Below, one piece after another: positions 3,621-26,216 of a stretch of 64,000 bases of DNA; position 1 is the stretch's first letter; each line of letters opens with the position of its first letter. This DNA is from Ferrimonas lipolytica. GTDB taxonomy: Bacteria; Pseudomonadota; Gammaproteobacteria; Enterobacterales; Shewanellaceae. The position numbers were made by a program, and so were the translations under genes. Where the stretch lies: positions 3,596,001-3,660,000 of the forward strand of contig NZ_CP051180.1 in assembly GCF_012295575.1 (NCBI RefSeq), read 5' to 3'. Below the pieces are notes generated by a model that did not search any database, was not told the DNA's origin, and saw only the letters and a list, made by a program, of their open reading frames with translations.

Positions 3621-4523
3621 CTAGTTGTTTAGTGCAACCTTAAATCGCTTCAGGAACGACTTCACCTTGCGGGTGTTGGTCGAGCCCATTCGCAACATCA
3701 CCTTTTGCGCGTCAGGCAGCGATTCGAGCGATTCATCCTCAAATTTGTAGTTTACGCTGGGGCTGGTTAACGCCAGTGGGCTGTCAGTTTCTGGTGCCGC
3801 CAAAATCTGATCGATAGCGGTAAACAAAGTGCTACGGAACTGGCCCTGTTCGTAGCCTAACTCTTGGTACGCCTCTTCCAGTAACGGCTCGATCAATAAA
3901 TAGGCGTCACTGGTCTTCTCTTCATCTAAGCGATACAAAAAGTCCGCCATCTGATCAAAGCGACGATAGCCGTCTGGATCGAGGAAGATGCGGTTGTTTA
4001 ACTCAATCACTGGGAAGGAGTCGATGAGCGGCAGCAGCGGCCCTTGACTGCGCATTACCTCACCAGAAGTTAAGTTATCAACAAACATGGTTAGCCGACG
4101 CAACAGGTTGTCTTGACGTAAGGTACCGTTGATTCGCATGCCATCAGAGATGTCGTTAAGCAGCGATGTGGCCATATCGTCGGAACTGTTGAGCGGCGGC
4201 AGTGGTTCCGGCTCTGGCTCCGGCACTACTACCTCTGGTTCCGGCTCAATAACTGGTTCTGGCTCGGCCACCGGTTCTGGCTCGAGGATTGGTTCCGGCT
4301 CCGGCTCTGGGATAGGTTCTATTACCGGTTCGACAGGTAACGGCTCGATTGGCAAAGTGGGTTCAACGATCTCCACTGGCGCAATAGGCTCCACTTCTAC
4401 AATGGGTTCGGATTGCGGGTGGCGACTAAGAAAGTACCAACCAATAGCACATACGATGACGGTAAGTGCCAAAAGTCCGACTGCGATTTTATTGATGTTG
4501 TTACTTTTTTTACTTGAATACAT
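3621..4523 (-). CDS. DUF3014 domain protein with Pro/Glu-rich periplasmic linker
   Basis: A 300-residue, single-pass membrane protein. A short cytoplasmic N-terminus ([12 protein letters not shown]) is followed by one membrane segment at about residues 13-33. A strongly repetitive Pro/Glu/Val linker spans about residues 38-110 (many EPEP and EPVI units), like the stiff periplasmic spacer of TonB. The C-terminal globular part (about 115-300) resembles DUF3014, with [14 protein letters not shown] and [12 protein letters not shown]. The function is unknown; the layout suggests a domain held away from the inner membrane in the periplasm. The gene is monocistronic or distal to recG, with an 88-bp gap. 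Confidence 0.8.
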
Positions 4524-4611
4524 ACCTGTGGCTACCGTTGCCTTGGTGAACGTCCATTGTGTCCGACTTTGATTAAGAGTCTAGGATAGATCACAGCTTA
4601 ATCGATCCGGA

Positions 4612-6699
4612 TCATGCTTGAGAGTAGATCTCTTTGCCTGCGAGCCAACGATTGATGATGGCGGGCACGCGTTCCGGGAAATGTTGCATGATATGGCCAG
4701 CCAAACGTTGGACTTGTGGAATCAGCTCTGAATCTCGGACCAGATCGGCGATTTTAAGTTCCGCTAAACCGGTTTGACGGGTACCCAATACTTCGCCTGG
4801 GCCACGAATTTCTAAGTCTCTCTGGGCGATAAGAAAGCCATCGTTACTTTGGCGTAACACCCCGAGTCGCGCTTGTGCGGTCTTCGACAATGGACCGTGA
4901 TAGAGCAAAACACAATGACTGGCGACTCGACCACGGCCAACTCGACCGCGCAGCTGGTGTAACTGAGCTAAACCTAGTCGCTCGGGGTTTTCGATGATCA
5001 TCAGGCTGGCGTTGGGCACGTCTACGCCAACCTCAATTACGGTGGTTGCTACGAGCAGGTGCAGTTCACCCGCTTTAAAGCGTTGCATCACTTCCTGCTT
5101 TTCGCTGGCTTTCATTCGCCCATGCACTAAGCCGATACTTAATTGTGGTAAGCGCTCTGCCAACTCGGTCGCGGTGTCTTCTGCTGCCTGACACTGCAGC
5201 ACCTCGGATTCATCAATCAAAGTGCAGACCCAATAGGCTTGGCGACCTTCGGTACAGGCTTGGCGAACCCGCTCGATGACGTCGTCGCGGCGGGTATCGC
5301 CAATGGCGACGGTTGTGATTGGCGTGCGTCCTGGTGGCAGCTCGTCGATAACTGAGACATCCAAATCGGCATAGGCGGTCATCGCCAAGGTGCGCGGGAT
5401 CGGCGTGGCGGTCATAATTAACTGATGTGGATAGCGGCCCTCTTTATGGCCTTTTTCACGCAGCTCCAACCGTTGATGGACACCGAAGCGGTGTTGCTCA
5501 TCGACGATGGCAAGAGCGAGATGATCAAATTCAACCTGTGCTTGGAAGATGGCATGGGTTCCTATCACCATCTTCGCTTCACCCGAAGCGATGGCACCCA
5601 ATGAGGTTTGGCGTGCTTTACCTTTCAGTTTGCCTGCTAACCAAGCGACTTCGACGCCAAGTGGTTCAAGCCAATTGCGAAAGGCGATGGCGTGTTGCTC
5701 AGCCAATAACTCGGTTGGAGCCATGAGCGCGACCTGATGGCCGTTGCTGATGGCGGTGAGCGCCGCAAGGGCTGCCACTAAGGTTTTACCTGAGCCGACA
5801 TCACCTTGGACCAAGCGCATCATCGGCTCGCTCTGAGCCAGATCTTGACGGATATCTGCTAAAACTCGGGTTTGGGCATTGGTGGGGGTGAACGGCAATT
5901 GCGCTAAAAAGCGATGCTCAAGTTGGGGGTCGACCTGCTGTGGTAGTGCATGTTGGCCGCCGCATTGTTGGCGCAGCTGTAACATGGATAGGTTTTGTGC
6001 CAGTAGCTCCTCCATGACCAATCGTTGCTGGGCTGGATGTTGCCCGTCGAGCAGCTGCTGTTGATTTGCGTCAGGATCCGGACGATGGACATAATGAAGT
6101 GCTGCGGTTAGCGACAATTGATTGGGATAGAGGCCATCAGGCAGCAGCTCTGGCAGGTTGTGATGCTTCAGTAGCAATAACGCCTCGGTGGTGAGCTTGC
6201 GTAAACCGGCTTGCTTGAGGCCTTCGGTGCTGGGGTAGATTGGCGTTAATGCATCCTCCAGCAATGGGTGGGTTCGCTCCCCAAGGATATGATACTCCGG
6301 ATGGATGATCTCAGCCCCTTTCATCCCAGCGCGGATCTCGCCAAAGGCGCGCACCCGAGTGCCAACTTTGAAGCCATCTTTCTGGGCGGCTGCAAAATTG
6401 AAGAAGCGCAGCACTACGGTACCGCTGTTTTCTACGAGGGTAACGCTCAGCATCCGTTTGCGGCCGTAACTGACGTGAGCGTCTGCCACTTCCCCTTCGA
6501 CGGTAGCATGTTGCCCTGGCAAAACCGAAGCTACAGGCCACAGTTGGGTACGGTCTTCGTAGCGCATAGGCAGATGAAACAGCAGATCCTGCACAGTGCG
6601 CACACCAATCCGTGCTAACTTTTCAGCCAGCTTATCACCCACCCCTTTAAGGCTGGTGATCGGCAATTCCGACAAGGTGTCGTGGGTGGCGATGGTCAC
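4612..6699 (-). CDS. recG: ATP-dependent DNA helicase RecG
   Basis: A branched-DNA helicase that remodels stalled replication forks and Holliday junctions. At 695 residues it matches E. coli RecG in length. The N-terminal part carries the OB-fold wedge domain (LPMRYEDRT region). The helicase part has Walker A GDVGSGKT (about residue 298), the DEQH box in VDEQHRFGVHQR, motif III TATPIPRTLA, and the C-terminal QLRGRVGRG motif VI. It lies 72 bp downstream of the acyl-CoA ligase on the same strand. It looks intact and ordinary. Confidence 0.97.
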   Translation of the reverse strand: MTIATHDTLSELPITSLKGVGDKLAEKLARIGVRTVQDLLFHLPMRYEDRTQLWPVASVLPGQHATVEGEVADAHVSYGRKRMLSVTLVENSGTVVLRFFNFAAAQKDGFKVGTRVRAFGEIRAGMKGAEIIHPEYHILGERTHPLLEDALTPIYPSTEGLKQAGLRKLTTEALLLLKHHNLPELLPDGLYPNQLSLTAALHYVHRPDPDANQQQLLDGQHPAQQRLVMEELLAQNLSMLQLRQQCGGQHALPQQVDPQLEHRFLAQLPFTPTNAQTRVLADIRQDLAQSEPMMRLVQGDVGSGKTLVAALAALTAISNGHQVALMAPTELLAEQHAIAFRNWLEPLGVEVAWLAGKLKGKARQTSLGAIASGEAKMVIGTHAIFQAQVEFDHLALAIVDEQHRFGVHQRLELREKGHKEGRYPHQLIMTATPIPRTLAMTAYADLDVSVIDELPPGRTPITTVAIGDTRRDDVIERVRQACTEGRQAYWVCTLIDESEVLQCQAAEDTATELAERLPQLSIGLVHGRMKASEKQEVMQRFKAGELHLLVATTVIEVGVDVPNASLMIIENPERLGLAQLHQLRGRVGRGRVASHCVLLYHGPLSKTAQARLGVLRQSNDGFLIAQRDLEIRGPGEVLGTRQTGLAELKIADLVRDSELIPQVQRLAGHIMQHFPERVPAIINRWLAGKEIYSQA

Positions 6700-18493: not shown

Positions 18494-19225
18494 TTATATA
18501 ATTAGCATTTGGTGGGAAAGGTGAATTAACTGTGATGTATTCTTAGCACCTAGAGTTAGCTTTGCCTTTTCCACGTGATAATCAATCCCTCGTGAAGTCA
18601 TAAAGTGGGTTTCGGATAACTGCTTGCGGGAAAGACCATTGGCAATATCGCGGATAATACCTACCGTGGCAGGTTTTAGTAATTGATAGTCTTCCAAAGG
18701 GCTTGCCAATAGTCGCTGTGATGCGATGTTGATGGCTAAGATCTGAAGATCTTTTTCTATTGAATTAATGTGGCTGAGTATTGAGGCTTCATCTTGACAA
18801 AAACCAAGTTCGAAAAATAGGTTGCAACCGGCTTTAACGTGGGGAAAGCCGGGAAGTTCGAAGGATAAGGTGATCTGCTTTTCATACTCTCGATATGGCT
18901 GCGCATATCCATGGAATGACGTTGCTTCTGGACTCCACACATAACGCTCGCGCTCTACCGACCTCATTAAATCATGGTCTAACTTGGTTAATTCAGAACG
19001 AACTCGGTGCATAAACCGCTCTAGCTCAGGGCTGGTGTAAAGCAGTGATTTTCGGTTTTTGATCCCTTTCAACCATCCTTTACCTAGCCAGAATTCCGGC
19101 TCAGAGAAGTCGAGTAAAAAAGCAGCATCACAAGCTCCAGCTCTTTGAATTATGGTATTTAATTGGTCTTGATAAGTAGCCAAAAGAGGGCTGGTCGCAT
19201 TCATGCTCATGTGTGTCTCATCCAT
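18494..19225 (-). CDS. LuxR-like transcriptional regulator (divergent HTH)
   Basis: A 243-residue protein. The last 65 residues resemble a LuxR/GerE helix-turn-helix: ATVGIIRDIANGLSRKQLSE, then SRGIDYHVEKAKLTLGAKNTSQLI, equivalent to the usual TVKFHLxNIxxKLGAxNRxQA. The N-terminal part (about 1-170) has the size and helix-strand feel of an autoinducer-binding domain, but I do not recognise the conserved ligand residues. A ligand is therefore not claimed. It is divergent from the tetraheme lipoprotein gene at 19504 across a 278-bp gap, which makes that gene a candidate target. Starts at 19225 or at the nearby MSMNATS are possible. Confidence 0.62.
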   Translation of the reverse strand: MDETHMSMNATSPLLATYQDQLNTIIQRAGACDAAFLLDFSEPEFWLGKGWLKGIKNRKSLLYTSPELERFMHRVRSELTKLDHDLMRSVERERYVWSPEATSFHGYAQPYREYEKQITLSFELPGFPHVKAGCNLFFELGFCQDEASILSHINSIEKDLQILAINIASQRLLASPLEDYQLLKPATVGIIRDIANGLSRKQLSETHFMTSRGIDYHVEKAKLTLGAKNTSQLIHLSHQMLII

Positions 19226-19503: not shown

Positions 19504-21558
19504 ATGATGAAGCTAAAATATCTACCGCTATTGATCGGCGCGGTATTAATCACCGGCTGTGGTAGTGATAATTCTAATGAAGATGTTACTCAACCGGTTA
19601 TCACGCCACCAGCGGAGCAACTGCCACAAACGGGCTCCGAAGTATTCGATAATGTGTGGGGGCCGGATGTGCAGTTCGAGCTCAACACCCCGATTTACGT
19701 CTATCTAGAAACCAATACTCGTGAAGACATGCTGCAGCAGTTCCAAGGCGGCACGCCACCTAATGCAATTCAGCTTGATCCCGCTCATATTCGCGAATTA
19801 CTGCCAACCTTGTGGACGGCGGAAGAATTTGAGCAACGGGTGTTTAATGACAACCAGATCAACTTTGCTGATGTGCTGTTGTACATGGGGGCCACACGGG
19901 ATGATTTTCATGTGGACTATCAGTGGGGAGAAGACATCGCCACCTACCGTTATTGGGTGTCTTATGACAAGAACGGTGACGGCGATTTTGATGACGAAGG
20001 CGATTACAAAGCCGACCCAGATTGGTATGCCAGTTACATGATTAACTTCGGTGAGTTTCGCCGAGAGGTGATGTATGACTCTCGCGGTGAAGCGCTGTAT
20101 ATGCGTTTGGACCTAGCGCATATTCAACCCGATTCCGGGGTGTTGTTGCGACCTAATAGTGCGGCGATGACCAAACGTCGAGAAGCTATCCATAAAGAGG
20201 AAGCGACGCGTCGCCATGAGGCTGAGGCGCAATACGGGGCTAACACCGTGGTTTTCCCAAGGGTTGAGGTAACCCCCATAGGTCAGGAGATGATGGTGTT
20301 TGAGGACGTCGTTGCCACTCCGCATAACTTGCGTCCGGACATCTATAAAAAGGATAAGGTAATCACTCTCGCCGATGTGCTGCTAAGCATGGATGCTCAA
20401 GGACTGATCGATATTGGTTACACCTTCTGGGGGCGTTTGGCGACGGACGTTGATGTACAGCATTTCTATTTGAACGAGGTCAATGGGCAAAAAGCCTACG
20501 GCTCGGTTGGGTATACGTTTAATACTCGAACCAGTTGGTCTGCCAATGACTTTAACGCTAAGTACATTACTGCAATGGTCACGCTTGGTGCTGGCACCAA
20601 GCCCTCATACTGCGACTGGACCGGGCAGGATGACCCTTACGGCCAAAAGGATGCGAACGGGAATCCGTTACAAGTGCCTGATGGCAAATTGGATTTGGAC
20701 AACCCTGAGTGTAACCCTGAGCTAACCGGGGTTGATATCGATATCTCCGACTGGTTTGTGGACAAAGAATCTCACATCTTTACCGATGTATGGGTGGTGA
20801 ACTACCCCGGTGATTCGTTTGAGGTGTTCAACACAGATATGTACGGCTTGTATGCCGAAAATGACTCCAAACGAGTGGGCGGAGACGAGAAGTTCCCTAT
20901 CCATGACATCAATGAGGCTAAGAAGCCTCTTACCGAGACTCATTTTGGCTGGGGAATTGCCGACTGTGGTAATTGTCACTCGTTGCAAGGCATCCACTCT
21001 GATGGCGATATGGGAACCCTAGGTGTTAATCCAACCCCAATCTACATCCGAGATGACGTCACCAGCTACACCGTTGATGACAACTCTCAGTTAGTGGTCG
21101 CGCCTTATCAGTGTGCGCAGTGTCATGGTAGTAATGGTGCACCTGAAGGTCATGGAGAAATCGCTCGCTGTTTCTGGTGTCACTCTGAAGACGTGGTGCC
21201 GCCAAACCATGGTCCAATTTCGGTGCACACCACCTATGGTGAGATTGCATCCGAAGCGCAGCCTGGAGGCAACGACCCGATGTTGTTCATTGGTGCCGCC
21301 GAGTCGATTGATGTGCCGACCACGGATGCCGATGCGGTTGCCGAGTTGGAAAGGGAGCTTCAGGCAAAGTATTTCTATCTTCCGTATGCTGAGAACATTC
21401 GCTTCGATATGTTGGCTCCGCACGAAGGCGTGTCTTGGCAAGGGAACTGGGGTTTCTACCCTGATGAGATGAAGGTGCGCACTAACAGCGATTGGTTTAC
21501 CGATGCGCAGTATCCGGATCCGTACTCCTGTATGACCTGTCACCCGAACAAAGACTAA
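19504..21558 (+). CDS. Tetraheme c-type cytochrome lipoprotein (paralogue A)
   Basis: A 684-residue predicted lipoprotein: signal MMKLKYLPLLIGAVLITGC with lipidation at C19. Four CXXCH heme-binding motifs lie near the C-terminus: CGNCH (488), CAQCH (537), CFWCH (556) and CMTCH (676). The long N-terminal region (about 40-480) is Asp-rich and has a calcium-loop-like DKNGDGDFDDEGD. I do not recognise a named family for it. It shares the FGWGIADC and CHGSNGAP blocks with the convergent gene at 21930-23819, so the two are paralogues. A role in envelope or outer-membrane electron transfer is likely; the substrate is unknown. It ends with a strong terminator. Confidence 0.83.
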   Translation: MMKLKYLPLLIGAVLITGCGSDNSNEDVTQPVITPPAEQLPQTGSEVFDNVWGPDVQFELNTPIYVYLETNTREDMLQQFQGGTPPNAIQLDPAHIRELLPTLWTAEEFEQRVFNDNQINFADVLLYMGATRDDFHVDYQWGEDIATYRYWVSYDKNGDGDFDDEGDYKADPDWYASYMINFGEFRREVMYDSRGEALYMRLDLAHIQPDSGVLLRPNSAAMTKRREAIHKEEATRRHEAEAQYGANTVVFPRVEVTPIGQEMMVFEDVVATPHNLRPDIYKKDKVITLADVLLSMDAQGLIDIGYTFWGRLATDVDVQHFYLNEVNGQKAYGSVGYTFNTRTSWSANDFNAKYITAMVTLGAGTKPSYCDWTGQDDPYGQKDANGNPLQVPDGKLDLDNPECNPELTGVDIDISDWFVDKESHIFTDVWVVNYPGDSFEVFNTDMYGLYAENDSKRVGGDEKFPIHDINEAKKPLTETHFGWGIADCGNCHSLQGIHSDGDMGTLGVNPTPIYIRDDVTSYTVDDNSQLVVAPYQCAQCHGSNGAPEGHGEIARCFWCHSEDVVPPNHGPISVHTTYGEIASEAQPGGNDPMLFIGAAESIDVPTTDADAVAELERELQAKYFYLPYAENIRFDMLAPHEGVSWQGNWGFYPDEMKVRTNSDWFTDAQYPDPYSCMTCHPNKD

Positions 21559-21584
21559 CTAACCGTTTTATATTTCTTAATCTA

Positions 21585-21616
21585 AGGCCTGCTGCGGCAA
21601 CGTAGCAGGCCTTTTT
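21585..21616 (+). terminator. Rho-independent terminator of tetraheme gene A
   Basis: The stem AGGCCTGCT / AGCAGGCCT with a loop of about 10 nt is followed by TTTTTGTG. It starts 27 bp past the stop codon. Confidence 0.85.
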
Positions 21617-21617
21617 G

Positions 21618-21871
21618 TGTCCGTATTTTGTGCTTGTTAACTGCGACATCGGAAGCTCAGAGTTCGCTGATGTTCGAAGGCACCACGGACAGCCAGCTAC
21701 GTATACCGCTAGGTGGTGCTATCTAGCTATCCATTCGTTGAAGAGGGGGCAAGAGCGAAACGGTGGTGATCTAATCCATCGTGAGCAGGTAAAAGCCCGT
21801 GGGAGCAAAAGCGGTGGTGGAATGAGACGTTGGCTCGTAGAGAGGCTAGGGAAGCACTCGATTTGCGGGTA
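21618..21871. other. Intergenic region between convergent cytochrome genes
   Basis: About 250 bp between two terminators. No gene, repeat or recognisable RNA was found here. A 100-codon open frame crosses it but has no ribosome-binding site or similarity that I can see. Confidence 0.4.
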
Positions 21872-21907
21872 CAAAAAAACGGCCATCCGAGTTCACGGGT
21901 GGCCGTT
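21872..21907 (-). terminator. Rho-independent terminator of tetraheme gene B
   Basis: On the minus strand, ACGGCCACCCGTG pairs with CGGATGGCCGT and is followed by a TTTTTTTG tract. It lies 22 bp past the stop of the minus-strand gene. Confidence 0.85.
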
Positions 21908-21929
21908 AATTAGTTAGAGCCTTGCGAGA

Positions 21930-23819
21930 TTAATAGCCTTGGTGATGGCTATCGGAAGTCGGCACCATTACCTCATTGGGGTGGCAGGTTAGGCAAGAGT
22001 ATGGGTCAGGGAAGTCCGCACTCTGGGACCAGTCTGAGTTCACTGGGAACATGCGGTCGCTACTGTATTCAATGACATTATCGGCTTTATCGGTGGGCTT
22101 CATCATCATTGTGGCGGCGTTGGCGCATGGCGTGGATTGGCTCGAATTCTGCCAGCACTCTACCTCCTCGGCTGAAACCCTAAGGCTTGCGGCACCATGC
22201 TGTTTGGGCGCGTATTCCTTAGTGTGACACCAATGGCAACGCGACATTTCACCATGGCCTTGTGGTGCTCCATTGCTGCCGTGACAGGAGGCGCAGTAGT
22301 AGGGGCGAGTGGTGTCGCTCAACGCCGGTGAGTCGCCGGTGACGTGAGTATTTTCTTGGCTGTGGCATACAGCGCAGTCGGCGATCCCCCAACCAAAGTG
22401 ACTGTCGTCCATCGGTTTTACGGCTTGGCTGATGTCATACCAAGGTAGTTGGCCATCGTCCCAGAAGAACTCCGGAGTATGCCAAAGCGTATTTTGATAA
22501 TCCCACTTAAAACTGATGACTTCTGGTGGATTATCAATCACCCAATTGTCCGGCATGATGTGGACGAAGTTGCCGCCAAAGCTCTGGGCAAAGTCTTCCT
22601 TACACGCGCGAGCCTTCTTTTCGTCAAGCTTGCCTAGCCAGGGGCAGAAACTGCCCTCAGGCGCAGCCGTGATGTCGGCAATGCTCATGTAGTTCATGGA
22701 AGCGTTGAAGTCGCCGCTCTTGAAGCCCGCTATTTGGTCTGCGGTGGCTTCGCCATTTGGGCTGCCATCAACAAACATCAACCAGCCCCAATAGCCGTGA
22801 GCCACTTGGTTGTTGACCCGCGACAACGCATAGGAGTAGATCGGAGCATCGTTGGTGGTAACAGGCCACCAGGTTAGGCCGACGTCCATATCCATATCTT
22901 CTGCCAGAGTCATCAAGGCATCGGCGATGGTGGTAACGCCATCTTGATAGGTGTCGGGACGCAGGTTGTAGTTATTGACCTCAACGTTAGTGGCAATAGT
23001 GACGTAGCCGCGACCATCAAGGAAGTCGACCTCAATCCTTGGTACGATAACCTTACCGCCTGCAGCCTCACGGCGTTCTACTTCTGCCCGCTGCACATAT
23101 TGGCGGCGCTCGGTCATGTATTTACTGTAGGGACGTAAACGGAAGTTCTGGTCCACCTGTACCGGCATGGTATCGGCGCGATTGTAATAGGCTTCCATTG
23201 GGGCGTCGTTGACGTCACGCAGGAACTCGCCGTTGGAGTAGTGGTTGGCTGGCCACCAATCGGGGCTTTGGAAGTTTTCACTGCCATCATCGACGGAGAA
23301 TTTGCCATCTCGGTTGTAGTCGTAAGAGACAGTGAATTCATAGGTGTCCAATTGCGGGTTAAATTCACCTAGGGTCACCTCAAGATCTTCGCGCGTTTTA
23401 CCGAGATAAAGCGCCATGTCTAGTAGTGAAAATTGACCATCAGCCATAATATCTGGGCGAATGCTCTTGCCAAGCACTCGAGCCAAATCCGCGGTTTCTA
23501 CCTGGTATTTTTGATAATCGAATTCGGTCTCTTTGTTTTTGCCATCATCGGTACAAAACGTCGGGTAGTCACTGTCGCAAGGGACCCATTTACCAATCTT
23601 GACGGTAATGGAGCCCCCGAGTTGCTGATCTGGAGCTACTGCGATATTGATGCTGTTGTAGTCGTTGAGGTTTTCCTCCGTGGGATCGGGAGTCGGAGTG
23701 GGATCTTCGATCACCGGTTCGGGAGTTGGCTGCGGGAGCGCAGTGTTGTCGGAATCATTGCCACAGCCTGCGAGCATTGCGGCAGTGACTATAAGCGCCA
23801 AATGGCATTTTTTCATCAT
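21930..23819 (-). CDS. Tetraheme c-type cytochrome lipoprotein (paralogue B)
   Basis: About 629 residues. The start at 23819 is chosen because GGAGG lies 5 nt upstream; an ATG at 23831 lacks such a site. The signal peptide ends LAGC with lipidation at C19, followed by a Pro/Glu/Thr linker. Four heme motifs: CAVCH (482), CASCH (509), CHWCH (528) and CLTCH (609). As in paralogue A, the second and third motifs are 19 residues apart around CHGSNGAP, and a calcium-loop-like DYNRDGKFSVDDG lies in the N-terminal half. Extra Cys pairs occur near residues 60-70 and 375-390. Function and partner are unknown; extracellular or periplasmic electron transfer is the simplest reading. Confidence 0.83.
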   Translation of the reverse strand: MMKKCHLALIVTAAMLAGCGNDSDNTALPQPTPEPVIEDPTPTPDPTEENLNDYNSINIAVAPDQQLGGSITVKIGKWVPCDSDYPTFCTDDGKNKETEFDYQKYQVETADLARVLGKSIRPDIMADGQFSLLDMALYLGKTREDLEVTLGEFNPQLDTYEFTVSYDYNRDGKFSVDDGSENFQSPDWWPANHYSNGEFLRDVNDAPMEAYYNRADTMPVQVDQNFRLRPYSKYMTERRQYVQRAEVERREAAGGKVIVPRIEVDFLDGRGYVTIATNVEVNNYNLRPDTYQDGVTTIADALMTLAEDMDMDVGLTWWPVTTNDAPIYSYALSRVNNQVAHGYWGWLMFVDGSPNGEATADQIAGFKSGDFNASMNYMSIADITAAPEGSFCPWLGKLDEKKARACKEDFAQSFGGNFVHIMPDNWVIDNPPEVISFKWDYQNTLWHTPEFFWDDGQLPWYDISQAVKPMDDSHFGWGIADCAVCHSQENTHVTGDSPALSDTTRPYYCASCHGSNGAPQGHGEMSRCHWCHTKEYAPKQHGAASLRVSAEEVECWQNSSQSTPCANAATMMMKPTDKADNVIEYSSDRMFPVNSDWSQSADFPDPYSCLTCHPNEVMVPTSDSHHQGY

Positions 23820-23952
23820 CTTTTCCTCCAAGTGGGGATGATTTGTTGCTTTGGTTTGTCGCCTATATTGATGAGGTTTTACAAAGTTAAGCGGTGAAAA
23901 AACACGGTAAAGCGCAATTTTTCAAGCAGGTGAGAACGAGATCATCGCTTGA

Positions 23953-24210
23953 GTTAACTTCGGCTTTATCCAGGTGGCGCAATCACTCGCCGAGGTCGGC
24001 GGTGACGACGCGAGTTGCCAGCGTGTCGCCAACTCTAATACCGGCCGTCATCTGTTTGAGTTGGTGCCGGCCCCACTGCAATTCACTTTCTTTCAGTGCC
24101 TGTGTCAACAGGCCGCTGACAACTGTTTTTCCTATGCCCACCAAGAGGTCGCCATCGAGGTTCAGCTATTGGACTTCGACGGTGAATGCCTTGCGGTGGC
24201 CAAAGCCTAG
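23953..24210 (+). pseudogene. Remnant of cbiD (C-terminal part)
   Basis: An open segment translating as VNFGFIQVAQSLAEVGGDD, ending IEVQLLDFDGECLAVAKA. It resembles the C-terminal region of cobalt-precorrin-5B C1-methyltransferase CbiD, which typically ends in a VEVxLFDxxG strand. A TGA in frame immediately upstream and the absence of the large N-terminal part show it is not functional. It is followed directly by cbiC-like and cbiE-like fragments, which supports the assignment. Similarity to CbiD is judged by eye and is the weakest of the three calls. Confidence 0.45.
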
Positions 24211-24227
24211 AGTCTGTTATGGATATC

Positions 24228-24645
24228 ATGAAGCTAATCACTTAGCAGGGACGCCAGATTGAGGGCGACTTCTTTGCACAAATTGATCGCGAGATCGTCA
24301 GCCAGCACGGTGGTAACAACTTTACTCCGGCGCAGTGAAACGTGGTGCGTTGGGCCAGCCATTCCAGCGGCGACTTTGAATTTGCCAAGCTGTTTCGTTT
24401 CAGCGACCACGCTACCGAACGCGTTATTGAGGCGCTAAAGAACGGTGCCAACATCGTCACCAACGTCAATATGATGTGACCGGCTTAAGTTAGCGTCGTA
24501 TGCGGCCGTTTGGCGTAACCCCACGCTGCTTAATCAGCGAGCCTAGCGTTATTGACACGGCCAAAGCGAGCGGCCGTACCCGTGCCATCGAAGCTGCCCA
24601 CCAAGCCGCTGAGCGAGGGTTGCTGGAGGGCGCGCTAACGCACAA
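24228..24645 (+). pseudogene. Remnant of cbiC (precorrin-8X methylmutase)
   Basis: Translating from about 24246 gives GRQIEGDFFAQIDREIVSQH, then a block with SSGDFEFAKLFRFSDHATER and NGANIVTNVNMM. This is the recognisable CbiC/CobH core. A TGA at 24336-24338 replaces the conserved tryptophan of FTPAQW. Further stops and a frameshift follow NVNMM near 24478, after which another frame resumes with PFGVTPRCLISEP and ASGRTRAIEAAHQAAER, the CbiC C-terminal region. The last codons (IGNAPTAL region) are lost where the cbiE fragment begins. It is clearly a pseudogene. Confidence 0.72.
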
Positions 24646-24655
24646 CGGCCTCCAA

Positions 24656-24921
24656 TCAACCCTCTATGTGGTCGGCATGGGTGACGATGGTTGCCTAAGT
24701 CTGACCAGCCACGCGGTGAATGCCGTCAACTGCAGATGCCACTCAAGCCTTGGCTGACGCAGCTGCTAAAGGATACCAAGGGCCAGAACATCACCATCCT
24801 CGCCAGTGGTGACCCTCTGTTTTATGGCATCTGCCAGAGTCACAGCGGGGTATCCGCCCCCTTCCAATGCAAGGGCGCGTTGCTTCCCGTTGAGGCTACA
24901 GCGAAACTCTCAACTCGCTGA
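24656..24921 (+). pseudogene. Remnant of cbiE (precorrin-6Y methylase)
   Basis: The N-terminal fragment TLYVVGMGDDGCLSLTSHAV matches the first strand and glycine loop of CbiE/CobL methylases. After a frameshift and apparent loss of about 30 codons, PLKPWLTQLLKDTKGQ and NITILASGDPLFYGI follow; GDPLFYGI is the signature SAM-binding loop. The rest of the gene is absent or unrecognisable after 24840. Confidence 0.72.
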
Positions 24922-25197: not shown

Positions 25198-26058
25198 TCA
25201 CTCGATGTTCTGGATCTGCTCACGCATTTGCTCAATCAACACTTTAAGCTCTACTGCTGCGGTGGTGATATCAGCACTGATGGATTTAGAGGCTAGAGTG
25301 TTCGCTTCGCGGTTAAACTCTTGCATCATAAAGTCCAAGCGACGGCCACAGGCGCCGCCTTTTTTCAGTACTTTCTTGGTTTCTGCTACGTGAGCATCTA
25401 AACGGTCTAGTTCTTCAGCTACATCAAGCTTTTGCGCCAACAAAATCATCTCTTGTTCGATGCGAGCAGGATCAAGGGTTTCCTTTACTTCTGCTAACTT
25501 GTCGGTGAGTCGTTGACGTTGCCACGCCATCACTTCTGGCATGCGCTCGCGAACGTAAGCCGCTTGCTCGGTAATGGCTGTTAAGCGCTGTTGGATCATC
25601 GCTTCAAGCGCATCGCCTTCAGAGCCACGAGCCGCAAGGAAGTCGTCAACTACTGCGTCAAACTTAACCAGTAGCTGTTTGCTCACCTCGCCCATGTCTT
25701 GGCTGCCGCCTTCAAGTACACCAGGCCACTTCATCAGATCAACCAGTTGGATCTGGCCGATGCCAGCCATGGTATGTAGCTGGTGAGCTTTGTCGATGAG
25801 CTGCTCAACCAAAGCTTCGTTCATTTGCAGTGTGTCGGTCTTTTGAGCCAACTCAAAACGCAGGTTTACTTCCACTTTACCGCGCGCTAAACGCTTACGC
25901 AGACGTTCACGCAATACCGGCTCTAGGCTGCGCAGCTGCTCTGGCAGACGTAGGTAGGTTTCTAGGTAGCGTTGGTTTACGGAACGGATTTCCCATGAGG
26001 CGGTGCCCCAATCGGCTTGTAGTTCGCCGCGACCATAGGCGGTCATTGAGTGGATCAT
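25198..26058 (-). CDS. yicC: YicC/YloC family endoribonuclease
   Basis: The 286-residue product starts MIHSMTAYGRGE, the conserved N-terminus of the family; the longer frame to 26124 is unlikely. YicC-type proteins are endoribonucleases that influence small-RNA turnover. Conserved blocks include VNQRYLETYLRLPEQLR, DPARIEQEMILLAQKLDVAEELDRL and the C-terminal GRRLDFMMQEFNREANTL. It is divergent from rph across about 200 bp, an arrangement widespread in gammaproteobacteria. Confidence 0.92.
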   Translation of the reverse strand: MIHSMTAYGRGELQADWGTASWEIRSVNQRYLETYLRLPEQLRSLEPVLRERLRKRLARGKVEVNLRFELAQKTDTLQMNEALVEQLIDKAHQLHTMAGIGQIQLVDLMKWPGVLEGGSQDMGEVSKQLLVKFDAVVDDFLAARGSEGDALEAMIQQRLTAITEQAAYVRERMPEVMAWQRQRLTDKLAEVKETLDPARIEQEMILLAQKLDVAEELDRLDAHVAETKKVLKKGGACGRRLDFMMQEFNREANTLASKSISADITTAAVELKVLIEQMREQIQNIE

Positions 26059-26216
26059 AGTTGTGCGCTCTAACTCGTTAAGTTGGGGCAAGTATATCGG
26101 GCTGTGGCGATGGGGGGTAGTCACACCGCAGTCGCTGGTTCTCGTTTTGGAGATGGTTCTGTTTCAATCAATTGGGATTTAACGGTATTGCTGAGCAATC
26201 GGATGCTATTTATCGT

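Follow-up and report, generated by a model that had tools for sequence, protein, structure and literature searches.

Two convergent tetraheme lipoprotein genes of Ferrimonas lipolytica belong to a duplicated, regulator-paired family with predicted tandem beta-grasp domains

Results

Genes and signals at the locus

We analysed a 64,000-nucleotide stretch of the Ferrimonas lipolytica genome (contig NZ_CP051180.1, positions 3,596,001 to 3,660,000), hereafter the window, which carries two convergent genes for large tetraheme lipoproteins. Open reading frame (ORF) coordinates together with a heme-motif scan placed gene 1, of 684 residues, at 19504..21558 (+) and gene 2 at 21930..23819 (-). The ORF of gene 2 spans 21930-23831 (-), and its 629 residues are counted from the ATG at 23819. 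Both proteins begin with a lipobox (LITGC in gene 1, MLAGC in gene 2), carry four C-terminal CXXCH motifs and have the blocks FGWGIADC and CHGSNGAP in common, in agreement with a preliminary description of this DNA that had called them a convergent paralogous pair. The lipobox cysteine of gene 1 (residue 19; 19558..19560, +) is invariant in 37/37 aligned members of the family to which both genes belong. The residue at position +2 of a lipoprotein decides outer-membrane sorting, with Asp there as the exception; since gene 1 has Gly rather than Asp at this position, its product is expected in the outer membrane. Each gene also proved to have a terminator of its own, as had been proposed. An intrinsic terminator at 21584..21613 (+) serves gene 1 and was returned by the terminator scan, and the one serving gene 2, at 21872..21912 (-), is absent from the scanner's list and was recognised by its folding (-18.4 kcal/mol, z -5.0). 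The scanner counted 6 terminators in the region against a shuffle mean of 6.1, and both assignments therefore rest on their own stems and T-runs. A search of the window against Rfam returned nothing at gathering score.

The C-terminal tetraheme module

Motif scan and alignment delimited the tetraheme module to residues 476-684 of gene 1 (20929..21555, +) and to 21930..22424 (-) in gene 2. The four motifs of gene 1 are CGNCH at residue 488 (20965..20979, +), CAQCH at residue 537 (21112..21126, +), CFWCH at residue 556 (21169..21183, +) and CMTCH at residue 676 (21529..21543, +), and gene 2 has exactly four CXXCH motifs, at residues 482, 509, 528 and 609. Motifs 2 and 3 are spaced by 19 residues in 48/49 full-length family members; the stretch from heme 3 to heme 4 is variable in the alignment. 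Three histidines outside the motifs are invariant (480, 550 and 569 in gene 1 numbering). There is a fourth whose position shifts, and on this pattern the four hemes are probably bis-histidine ligated. The nearest named family, Cytochrome_C7 (PF14522), scored 17.2 and 16.4 bits with the two window proteins against a gathering score of 24.8, and only one of 22 members scanned passed it (L057, 25.4 bits). The heme module also stands alone: among the matches listed were small lipoprotein-like ORFs of 103-183 residues in other bacteria (L058-L060), which may be related to the ancestor from which the fused form arose.

The N-terminal half is predicted to be two beta-grasp domains

The preliminary description had proposed profile and structure-prediction searches of the heme-free N-terminal half. 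An AlphaFold2 model of gene 1, built with 22 sequences, had a mean predicted local distance difference test score (pLDDT) of 57.6, with 243/684 residues, mainly in the range 60-345, at 70 or above. In this model residues 58-222 (D1; 19675..20169, +) form a predicted beta-grasp domain that carries an Asp-rich loop, and residues 245-450 (D2; 20236..20853, +) have a predicted fold like the transcobalamin beta-domain, interrupted in the alignment by a variable insert at about residues 346-436. Structural comparison of residues about 245-447 by VIA-align gave Z 11.0 with haptocorrin (4kki; 2.1 Å over 100 residues), Z 10.3 with intrinsic factor (3kq4), Z about 10 with transcobalamin and Z 9.2 with the bacterial protein 3u7z, after which the next-best row dropped to Z 5.5. 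The modelled D2 thus has the fold of the transcobalamin beta-domain/DUF4430 group, well above unrelated rows; in the human B12 carriers this beta-domain takes part in cobalamin binding. D1 aligned with the D2 core in hhalign (probability 94.6 over 38 columns), and DUF4430 (PF14478), which a passage of one paper (PMC4350170) places at the C-terminal end of transcobalamins, touched D1 in two near-identical relatives (L053 and L054; E 0.021 and 0.077). A genome-wide search with DUF4430 in 4 genomes returned nothing over the cut-off. Together these comparisons predict that the N-terminal half consists of two tandem beta-grasp domains of the DUF4430/transcobalamin beta-domain type.

Outside the heme module, C19, W174, D291 and W309 are invariant in 37/37 aligned members, and R277 and D279 are kept in 36/37. 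The Asp-rich loops noted earlier as calcium-loop-like are present (DKNGDGDFDDEGD in gene 1, as an approximate and putative segment at 19969..20007 (+) inside D1, and DYNRDGKFSVDDG in gene 2), but the calcium reading of them found little Pfam support. Dockerin_1 touched 5/22 members, 4 of these at a different, N-terminal insertion. The idea that the loop is a true dockerin was considered and given up.

Database searches placed neither protein in an existing family. Matches of both to Pfam and NCBIfam were below threshold throughout, and no Pfam, NCBIfam or PDB sequence match covered a whole protein. A phmmer search of gene 1 against PDB sequences gave none at E up to 1, a profile of the 22-member alignment against the same sequences gave three rows only (E 0.33-2.2), and viral contigs held no match. 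A whole-protein database match and loss of the heme motifs in relatives were the two outcomes by which the preliminary description had offered to be judged, and neither appeared. Its account of the N-terminal region as unfamiliar stands insofar as no family matches the whole protein, but the predicted tandem beta-grasp pair now gives that region a recognisable type.

A much-duplicated family of narrow distribution

On the single 4.13 Mb contig of the genome that contains the window (G000) there are 13 full-length paralogues and one truncated member of 178 residues, which is a tetraheme module only (genome 4045168-4045704; L040 9169-9705). By sequence, the window genes are two of a 13-member unnamed, much-duplicated, lineage-specific family. 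A hidden Markov model (HMM) search at E up to 1e-25 found the cytochrome in 19/152 genomes of the taxonomic family, namely 7/14 Ferrimonas genomes and 12/138 others, all 12 within one genus that we take to be Shewanella. At a laxer E of 0.001 further genomes matched, with weak rows only that lay nearly all at the N-terminal end. When the heme module was searched in an even sample of the Gammaproteobacteria (369 genomes; E up to 1e-12), only the own genome was found; as at most 9 candidates per genome were scored in this search and at most 8 in the 152-genome one, per-genome copy numbers from both are lower bounds. The loci examined held 50 distinct HMM matches (E up to 1e-20), comprising 49 proteins longer than 400 residues and the 178-residue fragment; each of the 49 has exactly four CXXCH motifs, as does the fragment. 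With 13 full-length paralogues in one genome and the motifs kept throughout, the architecture first seen in the window pair goes beyond chance. At one locus (L030) an eight-heme lipoprotein at 3868-5727, partly like the octaheme protein of L070, lies ~2.7 kb from a tetraheme member.

Most members are paired with a LuxR/LasR-fold regulator

Divergent from gene 1, at 18494..19225 (-), lies a one-component regulator. The preliminary description had called it LuxR-like, and the predicted fold bears this out, with GerE (PF00196) scoring below threshold (16.9 bits, gathering 23.5). Among 6 regulator relatives scanned, two pass GerE (L064, 24.2 bits; L067, 48.8 bits) and 4 fall below. The regulator model (mean pLDDT 68.8) aligned with the LasR ligand domain 6d6n at Z 9.9 (3.5 Å over 130 residues) and with GerE-type helix-turn-helix (HTH) domains at Z about 12 and about 1 Å, so that as modelled it has the LuxR/LasR receptor fold of ligand domain plus HTH. 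The ligand domain is far less conserved than the HTH (mean majority share 0.29 vs 0.55).

The regulator and the cytochrome travel together. Searching G000 with the window regulator gave 12 matches, 12/12 near a family cytochrome, and the regulator is present in 7/14 Ferrimonas genomes, which are exactly the cytochrome-bearing ones. Across these 7 genomes 55/76 regulator matches lie within 2.5 kb of a cytochrome match and 57/63 cytochrome rows lie near a regulator, a count in which a few proteins may figure twice (63/81 cytochrome rows were entered; the remaining 18 comprised 16 additional pieces of proteins already counted and 2 weak rows from the N-terminal end). In the fetched DNA a regulator occurs within 1.2 kb of 44/49 cytochromes, with 42 distinct regulators placed downstream on the same strand (24 of the 44 cases), upstream on the same strand (13), divergently (6) or downstream on the opposite strand (1). 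The distances between partners correlate (Mantel r 0.65, 0/2000 permutations; own genome r 0.58, 1/5000). To judge from these sequences the correlation shows paired inheritance, which is not proof of regulation.

Twenty-one regulator matches have no cytochrome close by (for one, in L085, the distance is 5.1 kb), and 20 loci cover them. RdhA and/or RdhC homologues occur at 11/20 loci (RdhC only at L076, a contig end), an OmcA/MtrC-type gene at 4/20 (L062, L067, L068, L071) and octaheme plus MtrC-type genes at 2/20. L075 has, of the genes sought, a response regulator and an ApbE-like gene only, and L069 and L079 have none of them. NCBIfam cut-offs were passed by three RdhA proteins and one decaheme protein scanned, and a Pfam cut-off by a second decaheme protein. 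As an observation in its own right, RdhA and RdhC-like genes adjoin LuxR-fold regulators in Ferrimonas-type genomes (L064, L065, L074, L077, L085 and others), and at L071 (6282-7689) two regulator-family genes stand in tandem next to an OmcA/MtrC-type decaheme gene.

Some members adjoin cobalamin genes

At one locus of the own genome (L033) a cytochrome and its regulator adjoin a cobalamin riboswitch and btuB-like, btuD-like, btuC-like, cobU and btuF-like genes, with cobQ, cbiA and cobS homologues farther along. In G456 (L104) a cytochrome lies between cobS and a run of regulator, riboswitch and btuB-like gene; in G468 (L105) two cytochromes of another subfamily accompany a riboswitch and a btuB-like gene, with the second cytochrome roughly 4 kb away; and in G510 (L108) a cytochrome adjoins cbiA, with riboswitch and btuB-like gene beyond. 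The cob- or btuB-linked members of these four genomes belong to two subfamilies. The regions from G456, G468 and G510 (L104-L108) were picked for a nearby cbiD and are a biased sample. Where scanned, CobQ, CobB/CbiA, CobS and CobU passed NCBIfam cut-offs. For the BtuB-like proteins the B12-receptor model ranked first, below its cut-off (399-428 vs 599.7 bits), and BtuC, BtuD and BtuF also stayed below theirs; the Btu names are based on top or nearly top matches together with the riboswitch. Where there is a riboswitch, it is oriented towards btuB or cob genes rather than towards the cytochrome. The remaining loci of the own genome and 28 further ones (L041-L057, L080-L090) gave no cobalamin riboswitch at the Rfam gathering score. 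The cytochromes of L033 and L104 are orthologues with 90.5% protein identity (about 80% in DNA; GC content matched to the genomes, 0.52 and 0.44), whereas their neighbours are less alike (regulators 56%, BtuB 51%, CobQ 70%, CobS 45%), the simplest reading being strong constraint on the cob-linked cytochrome.

The window itself holds decayed remnants of cobalamin biosynthesis genes at 23965..24840 (+), which start some 150 bases upstream of gene 2 and show homology to cbiD (23965-24201, +), cbiC (24219-24476, +) and cbiE (24706-24840, +). They sit between gene 2 and a yicC-family gene at 25198-26124. An intact cbiD lies elsewhere in G000, at 1073067. Repeated clusters, similar to one another, of a DmsE-type decaheme cytochrome, an MtrB-like porin, a dimethyl sulfoxide-reductase-family A subunit and a DmsB-type iron-sulfur protein (L109, L110; genome 1040000-1079800) are flanked by an rdhA gene (1039081) on one side and by the intact cbi cluster on the other, so that respiratory and corrinoid genes are densely packed here.

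Over the 152 genomes cbiD occurs in 14, of which 13 have the cytochrome (19 carriers; Fisher 1.7e-13). All Fisher values given here ignore phylogeny. The association was also seen within Ferrimonas alone (0.0047) and in the other genera (3.8e-8). RdhA exceeds its cut-off in 12/152 genomes, 11 of them with the cytochrome, and among the 140 RdhA-negative genomes 4 have both cytochrome and cbiD, 4 the cytochrome only, 1 cbiD only and 131 neither (2.2e-5). The proximity of cbiD to the nearest cytochrome gave 0.004 to 0.22 per genome in 8 genomes; these figures assume random positions and independent islands, the other 5 genomes lacked both on one contig, and we did not use them as evidence.

Discussion

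The reading that we favour, and hold to be reasonably probable on sequence and model, sees the family as lipid-anchored redox proteins of anaerobic respiration that are wired by hemes, bind small molecules and mostly have one regulator each. The architecture and the regulator pairing are well supported by computation, and a respiratory redox role is what we infer by reasoning from the genes around the regulators. The lipoprotein would sit in the outer membrane, and the variable N-terminal domain of the regulator would sense a small molecule and switch on the partner gene. The beta-grasp pair may then bind a small ligand or cofactor, to or from which the four hemes would move electrons during anaerobic respiration. 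The company kept by the regulator family (RdhA, OmcA/MtrC) favours such a role, be it as terminal reductase or as electron conduit, and since 17/20 of its other loci are respiratory modules, this is the best inference for the family cytochromes as well.

Several results weigh against this reading. Foldseek alone yielded nothing with an E-value of 0.001 or less (transcobalamin complexes ranked first, at 0.11), and the fold claim therefore rests on VIA-align. DUF4430 matched 2/22 members and scored at most 15.7 bits, short of its curated cut-off of 23.8, and pLDDT was below 50 in 341/684 residues, mostly in the heme half of the model. In the fetched DNA, five of the 49 cytochromes lack a regulator within 1.2 kb. 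Gene 2 is one of these five; a regulator remnant upstream of it was looked for, with chance-level matches only. The Mantel signal nearly vanishes for distant pairs (r 0.08 at cytochrome distance >0.55), and a crude search of the upstream regions of 44 genes found no shared operator and no convincing motif.

Of the possible ligands we put a corrinoid first, for the cob-linked branch at least. The beta-grasp pair might hold a cobamide, either for surface B12 capture and reduction with BtuB, in the manner of BtuG, or as a heme-wired cobamide reductase, and we regard this as possible but tentative. The transcobalamin-like fold predicted for D2, the co-occurrence with cbiD over 152 genomes, the members that adjoin btuB-like or cob genes in G000, G456, G468 and G510, the conservation of the cob-linked orthologue between G000 and G456 and the decayed cbiD-C-E beside gene 2 all point this way. 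However, the own genome has cob neighbours only at L033, besides the window remnant; no riboswitch reached gathering score in the other loci searched; cbiD is missing from 6/19 cytochrome carriers; three of the four linked genomes were sampled for their nearby cbiD; the statistics take no account of phylogeny, and shared ancestry confounds the co-occurrence of the cytochrome with B12 synthesis; and the fold by itself is no proof of cobalamin binding. A bolder version would put these proteins in a new class of their own, as corrinoid cytochromes on the cell surface: lipoproteins in which the paired transcobalamin-like domains carry a cobamide next to the four-heme wire. Present in 13 copies in this genome, mostly with their own LuxR-type receptor, they would either capture and reduce B12 on behalf of BtuB or employ a heme-fed corrinoid for extracellular reductions such as dehalogenation. 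In this full form the proposal is doubtful.

The proteins could instead be ordinary extracellular electron conduits or mineral reductases, in which the beta-grasp domains are merely structural or contact the mineral. They are heme-carrying lipoproteins, MtrB-type porins occur in 14/14 Ferrimonas genomes and the regulator family also adjoins OmcA/MtrC-type genes. We consider this unlikely: the 7 Ferrimonas genomes without the family have MtrB just as the other 7 do, and a fold of small-molecule type together with paired LuxR-type receptors better suits soluble ligands. The ligand- or mineral-binding region suggested by the preliminary description accordingly keeps its first half, through the predicted fold, but nothing was found that favours mineral binding. 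A non-respiratory role in sensing, adhesion or heme storage, to which the variable D2 insert and heme 3-4 segment might speak, is very improbable given the invariant heme motifs and the mostly respiratory neighbours of the regulator family elsewhere.

The family reaches no Pfam or NCBIfam model over its full length, and it consists of much-duplicated multiheme lipoproteins whose domain fusion and regulator pairing bear on how Ferrimonas and Shewanella diversify anaerobic respiration. If the corrinoid link is true, a single polypeptide would combine B12 chemistry with electron transfer through multiple hemes; in the literature covered, which leaves most subscription journals outside, we recognised no paper describing a corrinoid-multiheme protein of this kind.

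Comparison with known systems

The B12-binding surface lipoproteins BtuG of Bacteroides resemble the family in btuB linkage, seen here for the cob-linked branch only and in four genomes; the family has in addition four hemes and transcobalamin-like domains, in a comparison that leaves the BtuG fold aside. The LuxR, LasR, TraR and SdiA receptors share with the window regulator the fold of ligand domain plus GerE-type HTH, but its ligand domain is divergent, and 18 aligned relatives have only 16-23% identity to it. OmcA and MtrC (TIGR03507; PF22111/22112/22113) are likewise lipoproteins with CXXCH hemes, and the regulator family adjoins OmcA/MtrC-type genes, yet they have ten hemes against four in the window genes and in all 49 full-length members. 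Gene 1 scores 10.9 bits with TIGR03507 against a cut-off of 209.3, gene 2 is unlisted at E up to 1, and the OmcA/MtrC N-terminal models were not among the matches of the window proteins. The preliminary description was therefore right to set the pair apart from MtrC/OmcA, and from the small tetraheme cytochromes, than which these proteins are far larger. Cytochrome_C7 and the L058-L060 ORFs share the compact heme module HxG(W/F), PYxCAxCHGxNGA, CxxCH, HG, PxxCxxCH, whereas those ORFs, at 103-183 residues, are without the beta-grasp half present in the window proteins. That half is closest to the beta-domain of transcobalamin, intrinsic factor and haptocorrin and to DUF4430, to which the predicted D2 fold is alike (Z 9-11); in contrast to the transcobalamin group, no alpha6-alpha6 barrel is apparent, and the family has a tandem duplication, a long insert and fused hemes.

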